Part shown: one piece after another, positions 1-45,979 of the stretch
How the letters are laid out: each line of letters opens with the position of its first letter
How positions within the stretch are numbered: the first letter of the stretch is position 1
Assembly (NCBI GenBank): GCA_019359435.1
Contig: JAHHHI010000073.1
Location: 1 to 64,000, forward strand
Direction of reading: 5' to 3'
Source of the DNA: Kaiparowitsia implicata GSE-PSE-MK54-09C
GTDB lineage: Bacteria; Cyanobacteriota; Cyanobacteriia; Elainellales; Elainellaceae
Length of the DNA stretch: 64,000 nt
Made by a program: the position numbers and the translations under genes
Notes under the pieces: model-generated
What the model was told of the DNA's origin: nothing
Database searches by the model: none
The model's input: the letters and a program-made list of their open reading frames with translations, nothing else

Positions 1-114
1 TTAATTCGCAGTTGGGCGGTCAATTTGTTTCGCTTGCAAGGGGAAACCTCGATTACCAAAGCACAACGGCGAGTTGCTCATGACATTGATGCTCTTATCC
101 TACTCATACAATGA
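1..114 (+). CDS. C-terminal fragment of a probable DDE transposase (partial at window edge)
   Basis: The frame is open from the window edge to TGA at 112-114 and encodes 37 residues ending AHDIDALILLIQ. The pattern (R-WAVNLFRLQG, then AQRRVAHDIDAL) resembles the C-terminal ends of IS4/ISAs1-like transposases, which is recognition by eye only. The rest of the gene lies outside the window. Its 3' end overlaps the convergent gene at 78-359 by 37 bases. No terminal inverted repeat could be confirmed because the other end is missing. It could instead be an unrelated short C-terminus. Confidence 0.4.
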   Translation, partial: LIRSWAVNLFRLQGETSITKAQRRVAHDIDALILLIQ

Positions 115-359
115 ATTGACCCTGCCCCTGCCCCTAACTCAGCTGCCCCTAACTCTACAACCCAAATCTTGATTCCGCCTTTCGCTCCGCCTTTGATTTC
201 AGTGCTGCGCTCAACTTCTATGTGAAACTCCATTGTGATTTCACCAACTTCAAACCGCAACCCTTTTGCCTGAGAAGCGATTATTGACTCGACTAACTCC
301 TTACGTAATGCTGCTATCGTTTCCTGTAAGCCAATTCGCCCTCTGCTTTCTCCCATCAT
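78..359 (-). CDS. trypco2 (trypsin-co-occurring domain 2) family protein, probably with a replaced C-terminus
   Basis: This 93-residue protein has the compact trypco2 pattern: IGLQETIAALRKEL near residue 9, then GLRFEVGEITMEFHIEVER and GGIKIWVVELG. The domain is found beside or fused to trypsin-like proteases in predicted conflict or signalling modules of bacteria, and its molecular role is not established. No protease gene is visible next to it here. The last roughly 20 residues are low-complexity and then run antisense through the end of the transposase-like frame at 1-114, so the natural C-terminus may have been replaced by an insertion. Starts at 359 or one codon later are both possible. 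Confidence 0.65.
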   Translation of the reverse strand: MMGESRGRIGLQETIAALRKELVESIIASQAKGLRFEVGEITMEFHIEVERSTEIKGGAKGGIKIWVVELGAAELGAGAGSIHCMSRIRASMS

Positions 360-1055
360 TTATCCTTTTTATCACTTATAAAAGTTCGCTTTACTAAGAT
401 CTTCGCATATAAATTTTGCTTTGGGCATCTGGCACCTTTCGGAGCCAGCTAACTACTGTTTAGACTGACTCTCTTTCCTAAATTCCGTCTAACACCCCAC
501 AGCAGGGTAGTTAGCCAGAATCAAAGTTGCATATCACCTCCTCTGGAGGGAGTTATACCGAATATTATCCGCATAACTATCTAAATTGGAGTGTTATGCC
601 GAATTCTGTCGGGCTATCTACCCGAATTCGGGTGTTATGCCGAATGAGGTCGTGATAGTTACTCTCATAGAGGTGTTTAGCCAGATCTTGCTCTGCATAC
701 TATGCCTACTGAGGGTGTTATGCCGATGGCTTCAGCAAATCTTCACCCTCGGTAGGAAGTATGAAGAGTTTTCACTACAAAATGTAGAGGAAAATACTTG
801 TTTTCTTTGACTAGTTGGTTTATTCTTTGCGATACCGGAATCGGATTCCGGTGATAAGTTAAACGCGCGCTTGGGGTTTTGGGCGCTGATTAGGAGTGTT
901 TGCACCACTCACTAACCAGCTGACCTGACTCCTGGCACGAGCAGGAGCCAGGCTTTGATGATTATCAAGCGCCTCGCGAATGCTGACAAGTGGTTGGGTC
1001 AACCACGTCCCCAAGCGCGTTTCCTCTACAACACGCATTAGCGAGGCAAAAACTC
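360..1055. other. Non-coding region containing the 41-nt array
   Basis: Apart from the array at 505-730, no convincing gene is seen. A 74-codon open frame at 586-810 runs through the array and has no recognisable features. A short inverted repeat, ACCGGAAT/ATTCCGGT, lies around 834-851, and another, CTCCTGGCAC/CAGGAGCCAGG, around 929-953. Confidence 0.5.
505..730. repeat. Array of six degenerate direct repeats with ~41-nt period
   Basis: A core close to GGTGTTATGCCGAAT recurs with its GTTA/GTTT step at about 510, 552, 593, 634, 674 and 716, so the spacings are 40-42 nt. Copies at 593 and 634 are almost identical over 14 bases. Copies at 510 and 674 share the variant GTTAGCCAGAATC / GTTTAGCCAGATC. 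The DNA between cores differs, with a partly shared CTATCTA. The period is not a multiple of three, so this is not a coding repeat. A partly complementary stretch AGCCAGCTAACTAC lies upstream at 444-457. Forty-one to 42 bp is close to four helical turns, which would suit a set of protein-binding sites. Function unknown. Confidence 0.6.
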
Positions 1056-1301
1056 ATGAGTTCAGAGATTAAGGCGCTGGTGCGATCGCACCAGGGCGAG
1101 AGCAACGCGCAGATTTGGATCATCGGCACGAGAGACCAGGTGATCCACTTAATGAACGAGCTGTATGTGAAAAAGGTGGCGACGGATCGAGCGCAGTTTA
1201 CGCCGATTATTCCTGCGCCGTTTGCGGATGGGCAGTATATGACGGTGTTGGTGCGATCGCCCTCTCCACCGTCCCGAGACTTGCCCTCGTCCACCCGCTA
1301 A
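1056..1301 (+). CDS. Small hypothetical protein, 81 aa
   Basis: The ATG at 1056 opens MSSEIKALVRSH and the following residues have normal coding character: a mixed alpha/beta composition with QIWIIGTRDQVIHLMNELYVKK, then PIIPAPFADGQYMTVLVR. The frame stays open upstream to 990, but those residues look non-coding. I do not recognise a named family. The conserved-looking core ends at VLVR and the last 15 residues are Ser/Pro-rich. The gene converges on tsaB, with a HIP1-centred palindrome at 1313-1334 in between. Confidence 0.55.
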   Translation: MSSEIKALVRSHQGESNAQIWIIGTRDQVIHLMNELYVKKVATDRAQFTPIIPAPFADGQYMTVLVRSPSPPSRDLPSSTR

Positions 1302-1312
1302 GCGCAAGGTGT

Positions 1313-1334
1313 GGCAGGGGCGATCGCCCCTGCC
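1313..1334. terminator. HIP1-centred 22-bp perfect palindrome between convergent genes
   Basis: GGCAGGGGCGATCGCCCCTGCC is perfectly self-complementary around the HIP1 octamer. It lies 12 bases after the stop of the upstream gene and 31 bases after the stop of tsaB on the other strand. There is no strong T-run, so a terminator role is an inference from position. Confidence 0.35.
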
Positions 1335-1364
1335 GCATTTCCATAACCCACGGGCTGAGAGTCC

Positions 1365-2051
1365 CTACCGCTGCTCCACAGGATGCTGGCCGTAATGAGG
1401 CACCGCGTCTTCCCAGGTGGGATATTGCCCTTGCGTCTGATCGTGCTGCCACTGTTGCCGTGCGATCGCCAGCACCTCTGCCGCAGTGCTGCCCAGCACG
1501 CCTTCCACCTGCACGCGGCGATAGGGCTGCAGCCATGCGTCTAGCTGCTGCTGCCACTGGTCTGGCGTCATCACACAGTCTGCAATGCGCGGACTCACGC
1601 CGGTTGCCTGCACTTGGTATAGGCCCACATGTAGCTGCCCCCGCTGAGCTAGCATTTCTACGGCTATATCTATGGAGTCGTTTGGTGACTCGCCGGAGAG
1701 GCTTGCCGAGTGGGATGCCGGGGGCGATCGCCCCTCTTCCATTGCCGCTCGACAGGCCACCGCCGCCAGCGACGAAACGGCATAAAGCGGAATCTCTAAC
1801 TGCTGCGCCAGCGTGCGTGCCGTCACCATGCCGATGCGGGTTCCGGTAAAACTGCCTGGCCCCTTTGCCACCGCCAAAAACGCCAGATCTGACCAGATTT
1901 GCGGCTGCAAAAAATTCGCCAAATGCAGATGCAGATGCGTTGAGAGGGCGTGACCCAGATCCCAGGTTTGACATCGGCGATCGCCCAGTCCGTTATCAAT
2001 CGCAAGGCCCAGATCGGGGCTAGACGTGTGGAGGGCAAGGGCGTAGGGCAT
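1365..2051 (-). CDS. tsaB: tRNA N6-threonylcarbamoyladenosine biosynthesis protein TsaB
   Basis: TsaB is the scaffold partner of TsaD in making the universal t6A37 modification of ANN-decoding tRNAs in the cytoplasm. The 228-residue protein has the ASKHA-type N-terminus ([13 protein letters not shown]) and the diagnostic loop [12 protein letters not shown] near residue 64, followed by [18 protein letters not shown]. Length matches the family. It lies 36 bases downstream of the ABC ATPase gene on the same strand, so the two may be cotranscribed although their functions are unrelated. Confidence 0.92.
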
Positions 2052-2087
2052 AAGGGGGTTATATGGAGGGCTAGACGGTAACGGGCG

Positions 2088-2825
2088 CTAATGGGAGGTG
2101 CGGTGAGTTGCACCGAGATAAAGTTCGCCCACGGTGGGGTTGTTAAGCAGGTCGGGGCCGAGCCCTTCGATGCGATCGCGCCCAGCATCTAAGACATAGC
2201 CCCGGTGTGACACCATCAGGGCGCGGCGGGCGTTTTGTTCGACCAGCATAATGGCTGTGCCCTGGGCGTTGATCTGCTGAATGCGCTCAAACACCTCGTT
2301 GACCAGCACGGGCGACAGCGCCGCCGAAGGCTCATCCAAAATCAGCAGAGACGGGCCTAACATGAGCGATCGCCCCATGGCTAACTGCTGCCGCTCGCCC
2401 CCCGAGAGGGTGCCCGCCTTTTGCCGCCGCCGTTCTGCCAAGATCGGAAACGCCTCAAACACGCGCTGCTTCATCGGTTTCACATTCCCCGTGCAGGTAA
2501 ACGCGCCCATTTCCAGATTTTCTTCTACCGTCAGCGAGGGAAACACATTGGCAATTTGCGGCACATAGCACATGCCCCGCTGCACAATCTGGTCGGGTCT
2601 GAGGCCGCTAATCTCGGCTCCGTTAAAGCGAATGCTGCCCCGACTGGGCGACAGCAGCCCAAAAATCGCCTTCGCCAGCGTGGACTTGCCCGCTCCGTTG
2701 GGGCCAATCACCGTCACCAGTTCCCCTGCATAAATTCGCAGGTTCACCCCTTGCAAAATATTGAGGTCGGCGATGTATCCGGCATGCACATTGTCAACAA
2801 CCAGAATAGGTTCAGCATCAGCCAT
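2088..2825 (-). CDS. natE: Branched-chain/neutral amino acid ABC transporter ATP-binding protein (LivF/NatE type)
   Basis: A cytoplasmic ATPase of a HAAT-family amino acid importer. Seen in 245 residues: Walker A GPNGAGKST near 43, Q-loop region YVPQ, signature LSGGERQQLAMGRSL near 140, Walker B LLILDEPSAALSP near 160, and the H-loop region MLVEQNARRAL near 195. The LivF-type YVPQIANVFPSLTVEENL segment distinguishes it from LivG. In cyanobacteria the N-I system subunits (NatA-E) are usually scattered, and no permease or binding protein is nearby. The symbol natE is by analogy; livF is equally defensible. Confidence 0.85.
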   Translation of the reverse strand: MADAEPILVVDNVHAGYIADLNILQGVNLRIYAGELVTVIGPNGAGKSTLAKAIFGLLSPSRGSIRFNGAEISGLRPDQIVQRGMCYVPQIANVFPSLTVEENLEMGAFTCTGNVKPMKQRVFEAFPILAERRRQKAGTLSGGERQQLAMGRSLMLGPSLLILDEPSAALSPVLVNEVFERIQQINAQGTAIMLVEQNARRALMVSHRGYVLDAGRDRIEGLGPDLLNNPTVGELYLGATHRTSH

Positions 2826-3077
2826 GGGTGAAGAAGAATGCGTGAGAAAGCTCTAGGGCGATCGCGTCAACTGTTCCAAATTCTAGCGTGAGTTCGTGTG
2901 CGCTCCGTGATTCCCGGACTTTGCCAGACTGCAACTGAAGTTAGGTAAAACGGGGCACTCTACTCCTATGGGGCTCTATTTATCCGGCGCTCCACACTGT
3001 AAACTTGCAAACCCCTACCGGCAGGTGCTCGCTGCGGCACAGAACTGCGTAGGGCATCACCACAGAGAACCAGACCT

Positions 3078-4514
3078 ATGCGAGTAGCTCAAGGATTGAT
3101 GGGTGGGGCGATCGCCACCGTGATTGCGATCAGTGCAGGGCTACCCGCCTCTGCCGTGACCGTGCGCGAGGTGATCAATCCTCGCCGGGCGAACGGGGGC
3201 TGGGTGACTGATATGGCTGGGGTAATGCGCCCTCAAACCCAAGCAGAGCTGAATCGCCTCATTTCGCAGCTAGAAGCCGCCAATGGCACCGAAATTGCCG
3301 TCGTTACCGTGCTGCAGGTTGACCCAACCCTGTCGCCCAAAGCCTTTGCAACCGAATTATTTAATAGATGGGGCATTGGCAAAGCCGGACGGAATAATGG
3401 AGTGCTGTTTTTGGTATCAGTGGGCGATCGCCGGGTTGAAATTGAGACGGGGCGTGGCATCGAACCCATCTTGCCCAACCACGAGGTGCAGACCATTATC
3501 GATTACACGGTGCTGCCTGCATTTCGTGAGCAACAGTATGACCAGGGCATTGCCGCAGGAACGCGAGCGTTAGTGGTGCGGCTTGATGGCTCCTATAACC
3601 CGCTGATGGCGGGGTTACGAGACGAATCTCCAATATCGCACCTGTTGGCGATCGGCAGCATTGTGCTGCTGGTTGGGTCGTCTCGGTTCCTCACTCGGTC
3701 AAAGTGCAAGCCCGTTCTGGCGGTGCCGGGCAGTATAGAGCGACTAGGCTGTCAGGATGCTCACAACACGCCCGTTCGGGTCTTGCTCTGGGCTCGGCTA
3801 GCGGCCACGGCAGGGCTGGCGGTGGTGGTTATCTTCTCGATCGCCAATCCCCACAAGCATTACGCCGCAACCGTTGCGGGAACGAGTGGCTTGCTCATCG
3901 CGCTGATCTATGGCGTCAACCGCCACGAAACAAAACGGCTCAATCTGGCAGACCAGGGGCGCTATCTGCTGCGCCCAGTCCACTGCCTGCGGTGCCAAAC
4001 TCCCATGCAGCGTTTATCGTCGCAGCAGCTTGAAGCCTACCTCACCCCTGCTCAGCAAACCTCAGCAGCGCTGGGTTCCACGCATTTTATGGCGTGGACT
4101 TGCGCTGCCTGTCAGCACCACACCGGCCCACGCCCGGCCAATCCCTATCTAGATCGCCTTGCAGAGGTATCCGACCAACACCGGAGCGATGCTAGCGCTC
4201 GTCCATCCCTCAAAGGGGTGCATATTCGCGCTTACGCTGGCCCCAAACGAGATCGCTATGACACCTGTGGAGACTGCCAAGAGCAGACGATGTTAATCAC
4301 TGAGACGGTGATTGAATCTGCGACTGAGCAGCGAGAAGGCCAAGGCGAGCGCACCAAGCAATGCCAGTGCTGCGGACAGGAGGCGATGGAGGTGTTCTCG
4401 ATTCCCCGCGTAGAGCCTGCTGACCACGCTAGTCATAGCCATTCTAGTTTTGGCGGCGGCAGCAGTTTTGGCGGCGGCAGCAGCTCGGGCGGGGGTGCTG
4501 GTGGGAGCTGGTAA
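3078..4514 (+). CDS. TPM-domain (Psb32/YgcG-like) membrane protein with Cys-pair C-terminal half
   Basis: The 478-residue protein starts with a signal peptide (residues 1-26, ending LPASA). A TPM domain follows at about 40-170 (GWVTDMAGVM, NGTEIAVVTV, NNGVLFLVSVGDRRVEIETGRGIE, IIDYTVLPAFR). Hydrophobic segments lie around 185-205, 240-260 and 265-282. After them come four Cys pairs (CLRCQT, CAACQH, CGDCQE, CQCCGQ) that look like two zinc-ribbon units. The tail is a His/Ser then Gly/Ser repeat (SSFGGGSSFGGG) ending GGSW, as in many YgcG-type proteins. TPM proteins such as Psb32 protect or repair photosystem II in phototrophs. The role of this longer form is inferred only. Confidence 0.75.
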   Translation: MRVAQGLMGGAIATVIAISAGLPASAVTVREVINPRRANGGWVTDMAGVMRPQTQAELNRLISQLEAANGTEIAVVTVLQVDPTLSPKAFATELFNRWGIGKAGRNNGVLFLVSVGDRRVEIETGRGIEPILPNHEVQTIIDYTVLPAFREQQYDQGIAAGTRALVVRLDGSYNPLMAGLRDESPISHLLAIGSIVLLVGSSRFLTRSKCKPVLAVPGSIERLGCQDAHNTPVRVLLWARLAATAGLAVVVIFSIANPHKHYAATVAGTSGLLIALIYGVNRHETKRLNLADQGRYLLRPVHCLRCQTPMQRLSSQQLEAYLTPAQQTSAALGSTHFMAWTCAACQHHTGPRPANPYLDRLAEVSDQHRSDASARPSLKGVHIRAYAGPKRDRYDTCGDCQEQTMLITETVIESATEQREGQGERTKQCQCCGQEAMEVFSIPRVEPADHASHSHSSFGGGSSFGGGSSSGGGAGGSW

Positions 4515-4566
4515 ACGCTCTGCCCGCAGTCCCTTCATCCTAAATTAACGTCGGCTCCGCACATGC

Positions 4567-4605
4567 CTAAGCCGTGCTGTCTATGTCGCGGGCAGCATGG
4601 CTTAG
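4567..4605 (+). terminator. Hairpin downstream of the TPM gene
   Basis: CTAAGCCGTGCTG (4567-4579) pairs with CAGCATGGCTTAG (4593-4605) apart from one G-U pair. It lies about 50 bases after the TPM stop codon. There is no T-run. A near relative, including a similar loop, occurs at 30288-30324, so this may be a dispersed hairpin repeat doubling as a terminator. Confidence 0.4.
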
Positions 4606-4640
4606 CCGTGCAGTGCAGGACTGACCAAGACTAACGAACT

Positions 4641-4684
4641 CACTGAACTCACGCCAGTTTCATCAAATTGGCGTGAGTTCAGTG
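4641..4684. repeat. 16-bp perfect inverted repeat
   Basis: CACTGAACTCACGCCA (4641-4656) and its exact complement TGGCGTGAGTTCAGTG (4669-4684) flank a 12-base loop. A 27-bp imperfect direct repeat (ATCCTACTGT-AACTCTCAGGGCTGCA) follows at about 4684-4709 and 4730-4756. Position is upstream of the giant adhesin gene. Confidence 0.55.
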
Positions 4685-4806
4685 ATCCTACTGTCAATTC
4701 TCAGGGCTGCAATTGGCTCTAACTTCGGTAATCCTACTGTGAACTCTCAGGGCTGCACGGGAACGCTAAGCCTGCCTTTTCCTAAATGTAGTGAAAAGGG
4801 CGATCG

Positions 4807-4874
4807 CCCAATGCCTTCAGCAGCCCAATGCCTTCAGCAGCCCAATGCCTTCAGCAGCCCAATGCCTTCAGCAT
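4807..4874. repeat. Four tandem copies of a 17-bp unit
   Basis: CCCAATGCCTTCAGCAG begins at 4807, 4824, 4841 and 4858; the copies are identical apart from the edge of the last. The array begins inside a HIP1 site and lies about 110 bases before the start codon at 4987. Such arrays change length by slippage and here could alter the promoter or leader of the adhesin gene. Confidence 0.75.
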
Positions 4875-4986
4875 GCTGGTGCTGTGGGTTGCTATGGACT
4901 GCAAACGAAGCTGCCACCGCGTTGCTCTTGCCCTTGCTGATTTCCGCACCCTCTGCAAAGACCCTTAGACGAGCATCTACCTTCTT

Positions 4987-7900
4987 ATGAGCTTTACGTT
5001 TGCCTCTGACATTTACGCCGCAGGCTCCTCGCCAACCTCTGTCGTTGCAGTGGATCTCAACGGCGATACAGTGCTGGATCTACTGGTGATCGATCCTGCC
5101 AGCAATGGCCTGAGGGTGCTGCTGGGGGATGGCTCGGGTGGGTTTACGCTGCAAGACAATTTTGCGATCGCCCCGTCTTCCTTTTCGATTGCGACCGGGG
5201 ATGTTAATGGGGATGGATTGGTCGATGTGGCGATCGCCCACAACGGCAGCCCTAACGGATCGCTGTCGATTTTGCTAGGGGATGGCTCGGGCGGCTTTAG
5301 CGCCTCTGAAAGTTGGTCGCTGGGGTTCAATCCAGGGGCGATCGCCCTCGGCGATTTCAACCAGGATGGGCGGGCAGATGTGGTGCTAGTGAATGAAAGC
5401 TCGGGCGGTGCTCTGCTGCTGCGCGATGCCACCGGAGGCTTTTCTACCGAAACGACGTTTGCTACGGGCTCCTCCCCCAGCGACATCGCCATTGCCGACT
5501 TTGATAGCAATGGCACTCGCGATCTGGCTGTGGTGAACCTCAACTCCGCCAGCGTGTCGGTGTTATTGGGAGATAGTAGCGGCGGACTCTCCTCTCAAAC
5601 CACCTTTGGGGTTGGCTCAACGCCCATTGCGGCTGCCGTGGGTGACTTTGACGGAGACAGCATCCCTGATTTGGTAGTGGCAAACGCCAATGGCAATAGC
5701 CTATCGCTGCTGCTCGGCGTCGGCGATGGCACCTTTGAGACCCAATCTGTGTTTGCGGTTAACGCCCCCAACGGCATTGCCGTGGGCGACTTTAGCGGAA
5801 ATGGCAACTTGGATGTTGCCGTGATCAGCGATATCGGAGAGCAAGTATCGGTGCTGCTGGGGGATGGCGCTGGAAATTTAGCGCTTCCCCTCAATACCTC
5901 CGTGTCTAGCGGCCTCAATGCGATCGCCGTGGGCGATTTCAATGGGGATGGGCTGGCCGACATTGCCACCAGCATCAGCGGCTATGCCAACAATGTGACG
6001 GTGCTGATCAACAAACCGGATCTGCCGCTTCCGGTCATCACGGGGTTTTCAAACGATACAGGAGTCTCAAATACAGACGGCATCACCAACGACACCACGC
6101 CAACCATTGTGGGCACCGCAGCCCTCAGTACGGGCGTTACGGTGTATTTCAACGGGAACATCGTGGGCACGGCCCCGGTGGATGGCGACGGCAACTGGAG
6201 CTTCTCGGTAGCCAGCGGCGATGCCCTGTCGGATGGGGTGTACTCGGTGACGGTGATTTCGAATGGCGGCGGCGGCGCGGTGAGCGAGGCCTCGGCCCCG
6301 TTGGTGATCACGATCGATGCCACAGCCGCCGCGCCCGTGATCACCACCCTGGTGGAAGATACGGGCGTGGTGGGCGATCGCATCACCAGCGACAGCACCC
6401 CGATGCTGAGCGGCACGGCAGAAGCAGGCAGCACGGTTGACGTGTTCCTGGGCGGCACGCTGGTGAGCAGCACCGCCGCCAACAGCAGCGGCAACTGGAG
6501 TTTTGGGCAGAGTACGGCCCTGAGCGATGGCTCCTATAGCTTCACAGCGCAAATCACCGACTTAGCGGGCAACACGAGCGCCCTGTCTGAGGCGTTTGTG
6601 GTTACCGTTGACACGGCGCTGCCAGTTGCGCCAGTGTTGGCGACGGTGGACGTAGACACTGGCGCGTCGGATAGCGATCGCATCACCAGCGACACCACTC
6701 CCAACCTCAGCGGCACGGCAGAAGCAGGCAGCACCGTCACCGTCTTTTTAGATGGGGCGGGGGCGGGGGCGGCGATCGCCAATACCAGCGGCAATTGGAG
6801 TTTTGGGCAAACCAATGCTCTCAGCGATGGCTCCTATAGCCTCACGGCGCGGGCTACGGATGTGGCGGGCAACACGGGTGAGCTTTCGAGCAGCTTTGTC
6901 GTCACCATCGACACCACCCCACCTGCTGCGCCCAGCATCACCAGCTTTACCGAAGACACGGGCATTCCCGGTGACTTTATTACCAGCGACACCACGCCGA
7001 CCATTGGCGGCACGGCAGAAGCGGGCAGCACCGTCACAATATTTTTAGATGGGGTGGAGGCTGGCACGGCGATCGCCAACAGCAGCGGCAATTGGAGCTT
7101 TAGCCAATCCACCGCCCTAGTAGACGGGGTCTATAGCTTTACGACGCAGGCCACCGATATTGCGGGCAATACGGGCAGCATTTCCACAGCCCTAAGCTTT
7201 ACCATCGATACGCAAGTGGCGGCCACGCCCATCATTGAAACGCTGATTGAAGACACCGGTATTTCTGATAGCGACGGGATCACCAACGACACCACGCCCA
7301 CCCTTCAGGGCACGGCTGGTGCAGGCGATACGATCACGGTGTTCCTCAACAGCACCTCTGCGGGAACCACCACCGCCAACAGCGCGGGCGCTTGGGCCTT
7401 TACGCGCACGACGGCGCTGAGCGATGGCTCCTATACCTTTACGGCGCAGGCCGAGGATGCCATCGGCAAAACCAGCGCCCTCTCGACGGCCTTCAACGTG
7501 GTGATTGATACCACGCCGCCCGTTGCCCCGGTGCTCACGGCAGTTGTGGAAGATACCGGAGTGCCGGGCGATCGCATCACCAACGACAGCACCCCCAGCA
7601 TCAGCGGCACGGCAGAGGCCGGCAGCATCGTCACCCTGTTTCAGGATGGCAGCGCCGTGGGCACCACCACCGCCACCACCAGCGGCAACTGGAGCTTTGG
7701 GCAGACCAATGTGCTCAGCGATGGCTCCTACAGCTTTACCGCTCGGGCAACCGATATTGCTGGCAACACGGGAGTGTTTTCTAGCGGCTTTGTGGTCACC
7801 ATCGACACCACCCCGCCTGCTGCACCCACGATCACCAGCTTTAGCGAAGATACAGGCACGCCCGACGACTTTATTACTAGCGACACCACGCCGACTATTG

Positions 7901-45589: not shown

Positions 45590-45979
45590 TGCAATTCTAG
45601 AACCCCCAATGACAGGTTTAAATGACGGGCTTAGGATAGGGGTACGGCTGGGTGGGCTGACAAGCTAGCTGAGGATTGCCTGGGTTGATCTCCCCTAGCC
45701 CCCTTAACAAGGAGGGAACCGGGTCAGGAGTCCCCCTTGCAAAGGGGGATTGAGGGGGATCGCAACGGATTTGCCATAGTCACGGATTTGCCATAGTCAC
45801 GGATTTGCCATAGTCAGGGCAATTTGTGTGTATTTAGGAGCTACTCGGGAGAGGTCTAGGGTGAAGGCGTTCGGGCTGTTAGCCTAGACGTGTTGTTGGT
45901 CAGCCCGCAATCTGGGGTAATGTCATGCCGGTAATGTAATGCCTGCCACACGAGTGGCGATAAGCAGGATGGAGCAACT
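45590..45979. other. Repeat-containing intergenic region
   Basis: It contains the CCCCCTTGC-AAAGGGGG hairpin near 45731-45748, the 17-bp tandem array, and nothing recognisable as a gene. Confidence 0.4.
45765..45815. repeat. Three tandem copies of a 17-bp unit
   Basis: ACGGATTTGCCATAGTC occurs at 45765, 45782 and 45799. Immediately upstream (45690-45760) is a CCCCCTT/AAGGGGG-rich hairpin of a type that recurs in cyanobacterial genomes. Confidence 0.75.

Follow-up and report, generated by a model that had tools for sequence, protein, structure and literature searches.

A phased array of palindromic units, probably the attI region of an integron without its integrase, in the cyanobacterium Kaiparowitsia implicata

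Introduction

The integron attachment site attI1 combines a simple site, made up of L and R boxes, with two direct repeats, DR1 and DR2, over about 65 bp, and direct repeats of attI have been proposed to act as topological filters, as described in the accessible parts of two papers (PMC8946536, PMC4792948). The attIA site of Vibrio cholerae is, like the site considered here, the attachment site of a chromosomal integron, but according to the accessible part of PMC8946536 it is reported without such repeats. In the accessible parts of the papers cited here, the attI sites described belong to mobile integrons and to those of Vibrio. The literature covers chromosomal integrons of cyanobacteria and includes models of attC for this phylum (PMC2426708, PMC8352920, PMC9668308), along with further accounts of cyanobacterial integrons or attC sites (PMC9176274, PMC8618304, PMC3108266).

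Here we analyse a stretch of 64,000 nt from Kaiparowitsia implicata, referred to as the window, in which an earlier note had pointed to an array of six regularly spaced repeats. The array resembles attI1, as the accessible parts of PMC8946536 and PMC4792948 describe it, in its position directly upstream of intI (in homologous loci), in a G^TT entry point and in putative extra integrase sites between the crossover and intI. It differs from attI1 in extending over about 290 bp with six palindromic, phased units at 40-42 nt, where an attI1-type site has exactly two direct repeats within about 65 bp. The accessible parts of the published accounts of cyanobacterial integrons contain no description of an attI array of this kind, and the present genome further differs from the integrons described there in holding many integrase-less platforms.

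Results

Six cores on the plus strand start at positions 506, 548, 589, 630, 672 and 713, at intervals of 42, 41, 41, 42 and 41 nt, so that the regular spacing claimed in the earlier note is present, and matches to the core are more numerous in the window than in shuffles. By their sequence they fall into the two subtypes noted before, A (core 1, GGTAGTTAGCCAGA, 506..519; core 5, GGTGTTTAGCCAGA, 672..685) and T (core 2, GGGAGTTATACCGA, 548..561; core 3, GAGTGTTATGCCGA, 589..602; core 4, GGGTGTTATGCCGA, 630..643; core 6, again GGGTGTTATGCCGA, 713..726), although their order, A-T-T-T-A-T, is not the strict alternation that had been proposed. With at most one mismatch, GTTATGCCGA has 9 matches across the 64 kb, including 5 inside 552-726 of which one is on the minus strand, against a chance level of 3.6 per whole window; a count of 9 was reached in 0 of 100 shuffles. 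The units are imperfect inverted repeats, in which a half-site scan (at most 3 mismatches to TCGGCATAAC) places clear reverse half-sites on the minus strand between the forward cores, within 484..741, at starts 484, 568, 609, 692 and 732; those of the remaining units are too degenerate for the scan. Tandem Repeats Finder has no entry at the array, because the units are too diverged. The array first noted at 505-730 is thus real, but alignment with DNA upstream of intI genes shows the actual feature to be larger, comprising a crossover site followed by imperfect palindromic units with a period of about 41 nt, at about 453-745.

The array has counterparts both in the same genome and upstream of intI genes in other cyanobacteria. 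Within the genome, the six-core array recurs with its order unchanged at 4 further places (contigs C46, C48, C43 and C97; intervals 40-43 nt), and a further, sixth copy seems to be cut at the edge of contig C100. The DNA common to the copies begins abruptly at AACTACTG (window 451) and continues through the array into a repeated element that we call module B. Among the close copies (19 sequences), identity to the window is 80% for the DNA between cores and 86% for the cores, so that the earlier impression that spacing had been kept and sequence had not fails at short range, while it holds across distant integrons. A segment of about 31 nt that surrounds the palindrome CTACAAAATGTAG (window 764-794) is inverted in the C46 and C43 array copies relative to the window, and apparently also in the copy at the C100 edge. 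When plasmid DNA was searched with the array, one piece of a cyanobacterial plasmid was recovered, along with weak matches in enterobacterial plasmids. Elsewhere in the window, a 17-nt unit stands in four perfect tandem copies at 4806-4873, and another, ACGGATTTGCCATAGTC, in three at 45765-45816; the latter is also present downstream of a module-B copy in L050.

Several familiar kinds of repeat were set aside. The period is no multiple of 3, which speaks against a coding repeat and agrees with the non-coding status previously assigned. The units are diverged throughout, with no identical repeats separated by unique spacers and with intervals conserved between copies, and a CRISPR array was rejected, as it had been in the earlier note. 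A structural RNA was dropped because a search of window 1-3000 at a limit of E=1 gave no Rfam match, and a transposon end once remnants of intI had appeared. The iteron-like replication function suggested before did not hold up, as no rep gene was recognised by eye among the ORFs of window 1-6000 and the context is that of an integron; nor is the array a by-product of coding or IS sequence, given its intI context and the same empty Rfam search. The tandem appearance of the cores is all that recommends replicon iterons, a CRISPR remnant or an IS or coding by-product, and set against the position, crossover, attC and integrase context, together with the period, this group of explanations is extremely improbable.

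The identity of the array emerges from its homologues. Over 289 nt and with a single gap, it is 84% identical to the DNA that precedes an open intI frame in another genome (L234, G153), and 72-83% identical to the upstreams of three further open frames (L294, L227, L229). In all four the array lies directly upstream of the integron integrase gene, ending about 70 nt before its start codon; a fifth matching locus, L244, has a frame interrupted by a stop. Since the same array precedes open intI genes elsewhere, the window copy can be read as an attI region joined to module B by loss of intI. The junction lies at 746..776 and is placed by comparison with two loci, one in the same genome (L037, C85) and one in another (L057, G002), in which a tyrosine recombinase of integron type is present in broken copies between array and module B. 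The order array, integrase, module B is seen in L060 (G009), and in L084 (G041) a long array lies directly before a 319-codon integrase, in a sequence that holds several N; the two proteins score 478 and 452 bits against the NCBIfam model of integron integrases, TIGR02249 (cut-off 265). Of the 22 module-B upstreams in the genome, 17 match attI regions of other intI genes; the count is 2 of 22 when a downstream database is searched, and 0-1 of 22 when the search starts from the downstream flanks of module B. The window copy has no intact intI, and the genome as a whole has no TIGR02249 match over the cut-off, so the locus is not a complete integron. We therefore consider it fairly probable that the array represents attI of a cyanobacterial chromosomal integron that has undergone deletion of its integrase gene, with the units as accessory IntI sites, in place of the orphan array with a cognate protein of no named system that had been supposed before.

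The outer end of the array behaves like a point of cassette entry. A simple site, CTAAC-TACT-GTTTAG, lies at 449..463, placed by the divergence of flanks between copies: these become unrelated at one base, 452/453, and read outward from the G as TTAGCT in the window and as TTGTTC, TTGTGC, TTAGCC, TTATGC, TTAGAC and others in the copies, with a substitution adjoining the crossover in C97. The predicted entry point is thus between 453 and 452, with G^TTAGCT as the outward minus-strand reading and, as at a G^TT crossover, unrelated DNA beyond. Such single-base divergence is what would be expected of an integron crossover carrying different first cassettes. Most arrays of other cyanobacterial intI genes have a (G)CTAACTAnnTATTA-like outer site at their outer end.

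For the cassettes themselves we used an attC covariance model built on 22 attC sites of other cyanobacterial integrons, picked by eye from 69 candidates and including none from this genome. At E<=1e-3 it finds 67 sites on 28 contigs of the genome; 28 sites are within 12 kb of a module-B copy, 25 of these being found towards the array in the expected, antiparallel orientation, and 11 of the 22 module-B copies have at least one attC within that distance. Matches were obtained in 33 of 35 genomes, this one included. At the window locus, the scan of 1-3000 gave nothing convincing, and the outward flank of 452 nt, which ends at the contig edge, is without attC. The same applies to the C46 copy, where the contig ends about 800 nt outward (about 450 nt in the window), while the sister copies on C48, C43 and C97 are attC-bearing. 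The flank in the window carries a minus-strand ORF of 93 codons with a Trypco2 domain (78..359; Pfam PF19631, E 5e-18), which we read as a candidate first gene cassette on account of its position at the crossover and its cassette orientation. No attC is found on its far side before the contig end at position 1, and the genome has no second copy of it. The earlier note had this neighbour right as a Trypco2 ORF; a transposase tail at window 1-113 has no Pfam support, and the other side, where an ordinary gene had been described, carries the separate repeated module B.

Module B (777..1301, plus strand) adjoins the attI region and is defined by its copies in the genome, 22 in number, others of which have other arrays upstream. 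It comprises a hairpin-rich leader and a small ORF, 1056-1301, for which no convincing Pfam, NCBIfam or PHROG match was found in the window, nor a convincing Rfam match for the module. At other module-B loci, an ORF of 65-67 residues follows a leader rich in hairpins, together with a TTGACA...TATGCT stretch that resembles a promoter. The encoded motif is IWIIGTREQV...FTPIVPAPF...MTVL. Covariation analysis of the leader gave no more than 4 pairs. A pairing of CTTAAGG...CCTTAAGCTTTTCTTC, which is conserved, is reminiscent of an attenuator. At least five classes of array precede module-B copies in this genome, and intI is absent or broken in every copy examined there. Among the best 80 of 134 module-B loci elsewhere, most of which come from Elainella saxicola E1 with its tens of copies, 5 have intI remnants upstream, and 10 hold between them 14 attC matches (E<=0.01), 13 of these on the minus strand. 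Conversely, module B follows downstream on the same strand in 3 of 130 intI loci. Module B is thus a frequent but not universal neighbour of integrons in this clade.

To see how general the period is, we turned to integron integrases across Cyanobacteriia, where TIGR02249 scores over its cut-off in 124 of 388 genomes. Our sample comprises 130 loci, 30 taken directly from this search and 100 selected from its list of matches, mostly full-length, with many partial ones omitted; 122 are distinct, and for 109 the upstream sequence is 300 nt or longer. Among lags of 15-99, the strongest self-match falls at 40-42 in 64 of 109 intI upstreams, compared with 6 of 111 downstreams and 4 of 109 shuffled sequences, and if lags of 39-42 or 79-84 are allowed, the counts are 79 of 109 upstreams versus 15 of 111 downstreams. 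When integrases are clustered at 75% identity, 15 of 29 clusters have at least one member peaking at 40-42. By autocorrelation, any period peak is absent or undetected in 30 of the 109 loci, including 10 of 10 in family f2, and the array is therefore common, but neither universal nor needed for every cyanobacterial integron. The period is present in a plasmid site of Kovacikia minuta (lag 40) and was not seen in three non-cyanobacterial plasmid sites, those of Gemmatirosa, Diaphorobacter and a class 3 integron. Anchored alignment of 98 arrays, with 24 of 122 loci lacking an anchor and doubtful anchors (e.g. L097, L103, L105, L202) retained, gives a consensus of CTAACTATtTATTA followed by alternating TTAGGC / GCCTAA-like half-sites. 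A Fourier test on the anchored information content had no 41-nt peak, although autocorrelation showed the period.

The distance from anchor to start codon ranges from 108 to 446 nt, and unit number varies widely, from about 2 to 10 per array as estimated from array lengths. This variation bears on the possibility that the attI-linked array is an operator, through which IntI or an integron-linked repressor would control intI or an outward cassette promoter. The array does stand ahead of intI, and between it and the start codon there is a match to RGTACNNNDGTWCB, which we take to be the motif of a LexA-like box: with at most one mismatch it occurs in 23 of 113 intI upstreams, mostly at -30 to -60 from the start, compared with 4 of the 113 downstreams and none of 113 shuffled sequences. 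This enrichment argues that the interval from array to start is regulatory, and SOS control of intI is possible on the strength of the motif. The array itself, however, reaches out to the crossover and, in the window's family, stops about 70 nt before intI, farther than an operator requires, and with the variable unit number this makes an operator unlikely, if still worth considering.

If the units are protein-binding sites, the question arises of what binds them. Array similarity rises with IntI identity over all pairs of 109 loci (Spearman 0.51), and equally so for pairs from different families (0.51), compared with 0.10 for downstream DNA; some of this correlation will stem from the physical proximity of array and intI, although the downstream DNA correlates far less. 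For genomes with two integrons whose IntI are less than 75% identical, 36 comparisons were tallied by hand; in 31 of them, the array resembled that belonging to the nearest integrase of another genome more than its companion in the same genome. An array motif that tracks the integrase lineage points to a binder encoded by the integron, with IntI as the obvious candidate, and disfavours a host factor. A period near four helical turns would be typical of architectural sites generally, and one could thus imagine a host nucleoid or regulatory protein binding and shaping the array; since integrons of the same genome differ in motif and resemble the arrays of related integrases elsewhere (the 31 of 36), we regard this as very improbable.

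One could also speculate that the units act as single-stranded hairpins, small and attC-like, each a possible recombination substrate. Both strands do fold better than dinucleotide shuffles (mean z about -4), complementarity within units slightly exceeds that between units in 47 of 74 arrays, with a control that is not independent, the attC model gives weak matches of 13-14 bits on two window units, and the window's own array family folds better on the minus strand. Across arrays, however, there is no strand preference (49 of 95), whereas attC is bottom-strand specific according to the accessible part of PMC8946536; covariation is almost nil in 14 aligned arrays, and the units are far shorter than attC. 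Hairpin substrates are thus quite improbable, and the lack of a strand preference favours binding of double-stranded DNA. The half-sites of a unit face inward and lie 16 nt apart, compared with a gap of 4 nt in the crossover site, and the units are therefore no simple copies of that site. Sites for an oligomerising DNA-binding protein, as the earlier note had proposed, appear to be the best reading of an array so constrained in its spacing.

Discussion

We propose that cassettes would be taken up at the array's outer end (453/452) through IntI-mediated recombination between attI and attC, and that the palindromic units behind the crossover, repeated every 40-41 bp or about four helical turns, would serve as accessory sites. 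IntI protomers would bind to them along a single face of the DNA, and a larger nucleoprotein complex would form and steer recombination, much as is thought for DR1 and DR2 of attI1. The binding of IntI, its architectural role and helical phasing as the reason for the period are what we infer from the arrangement of the sites. Without an integrase acting in trans, the attI site of this strain is probably inactive. Within the genome, intI seems to have been lost on several occasions, with arrays and cassettes left in place. The copies on C48, C43 and C97, with attC sites but no intact intI, resemble a CALIN (cluster of attC lacking integrase); they differ from it in keeping the attI array, and the window locus differs in showing no attC.

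Integrons and attC sites in cyanobacteria are known; the phased attI array is apparently new, in that no description of periodic attI arrays was found in the open-access literature searched, which is weak evidence of absence with subscription literature mostly outside the search. The chances are about even that a large share of cyanobacterial integrons uses a distinct attI, in which a phased palindromic accessory array supports a higher-order IntI complex and the motif co-evolves with the integrase lineage. If so, attI specificity, and perhaps a topological filter for cassettes, would be encoded in spacing no less than in sequence.

For this organism, array remnants at many places, together with attC sites and no intact integrase, suggest that integron platforms have been multiplying within the chromosome. 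For the phylum, a phased multi-site attI whose period is conserved across many families amounts to a set of natural variants in motif, unit number and phase, which could be used to test in what way additional sites for the integrase guide the capture of cassettes, and what makes a match between attI and integrase necessary.
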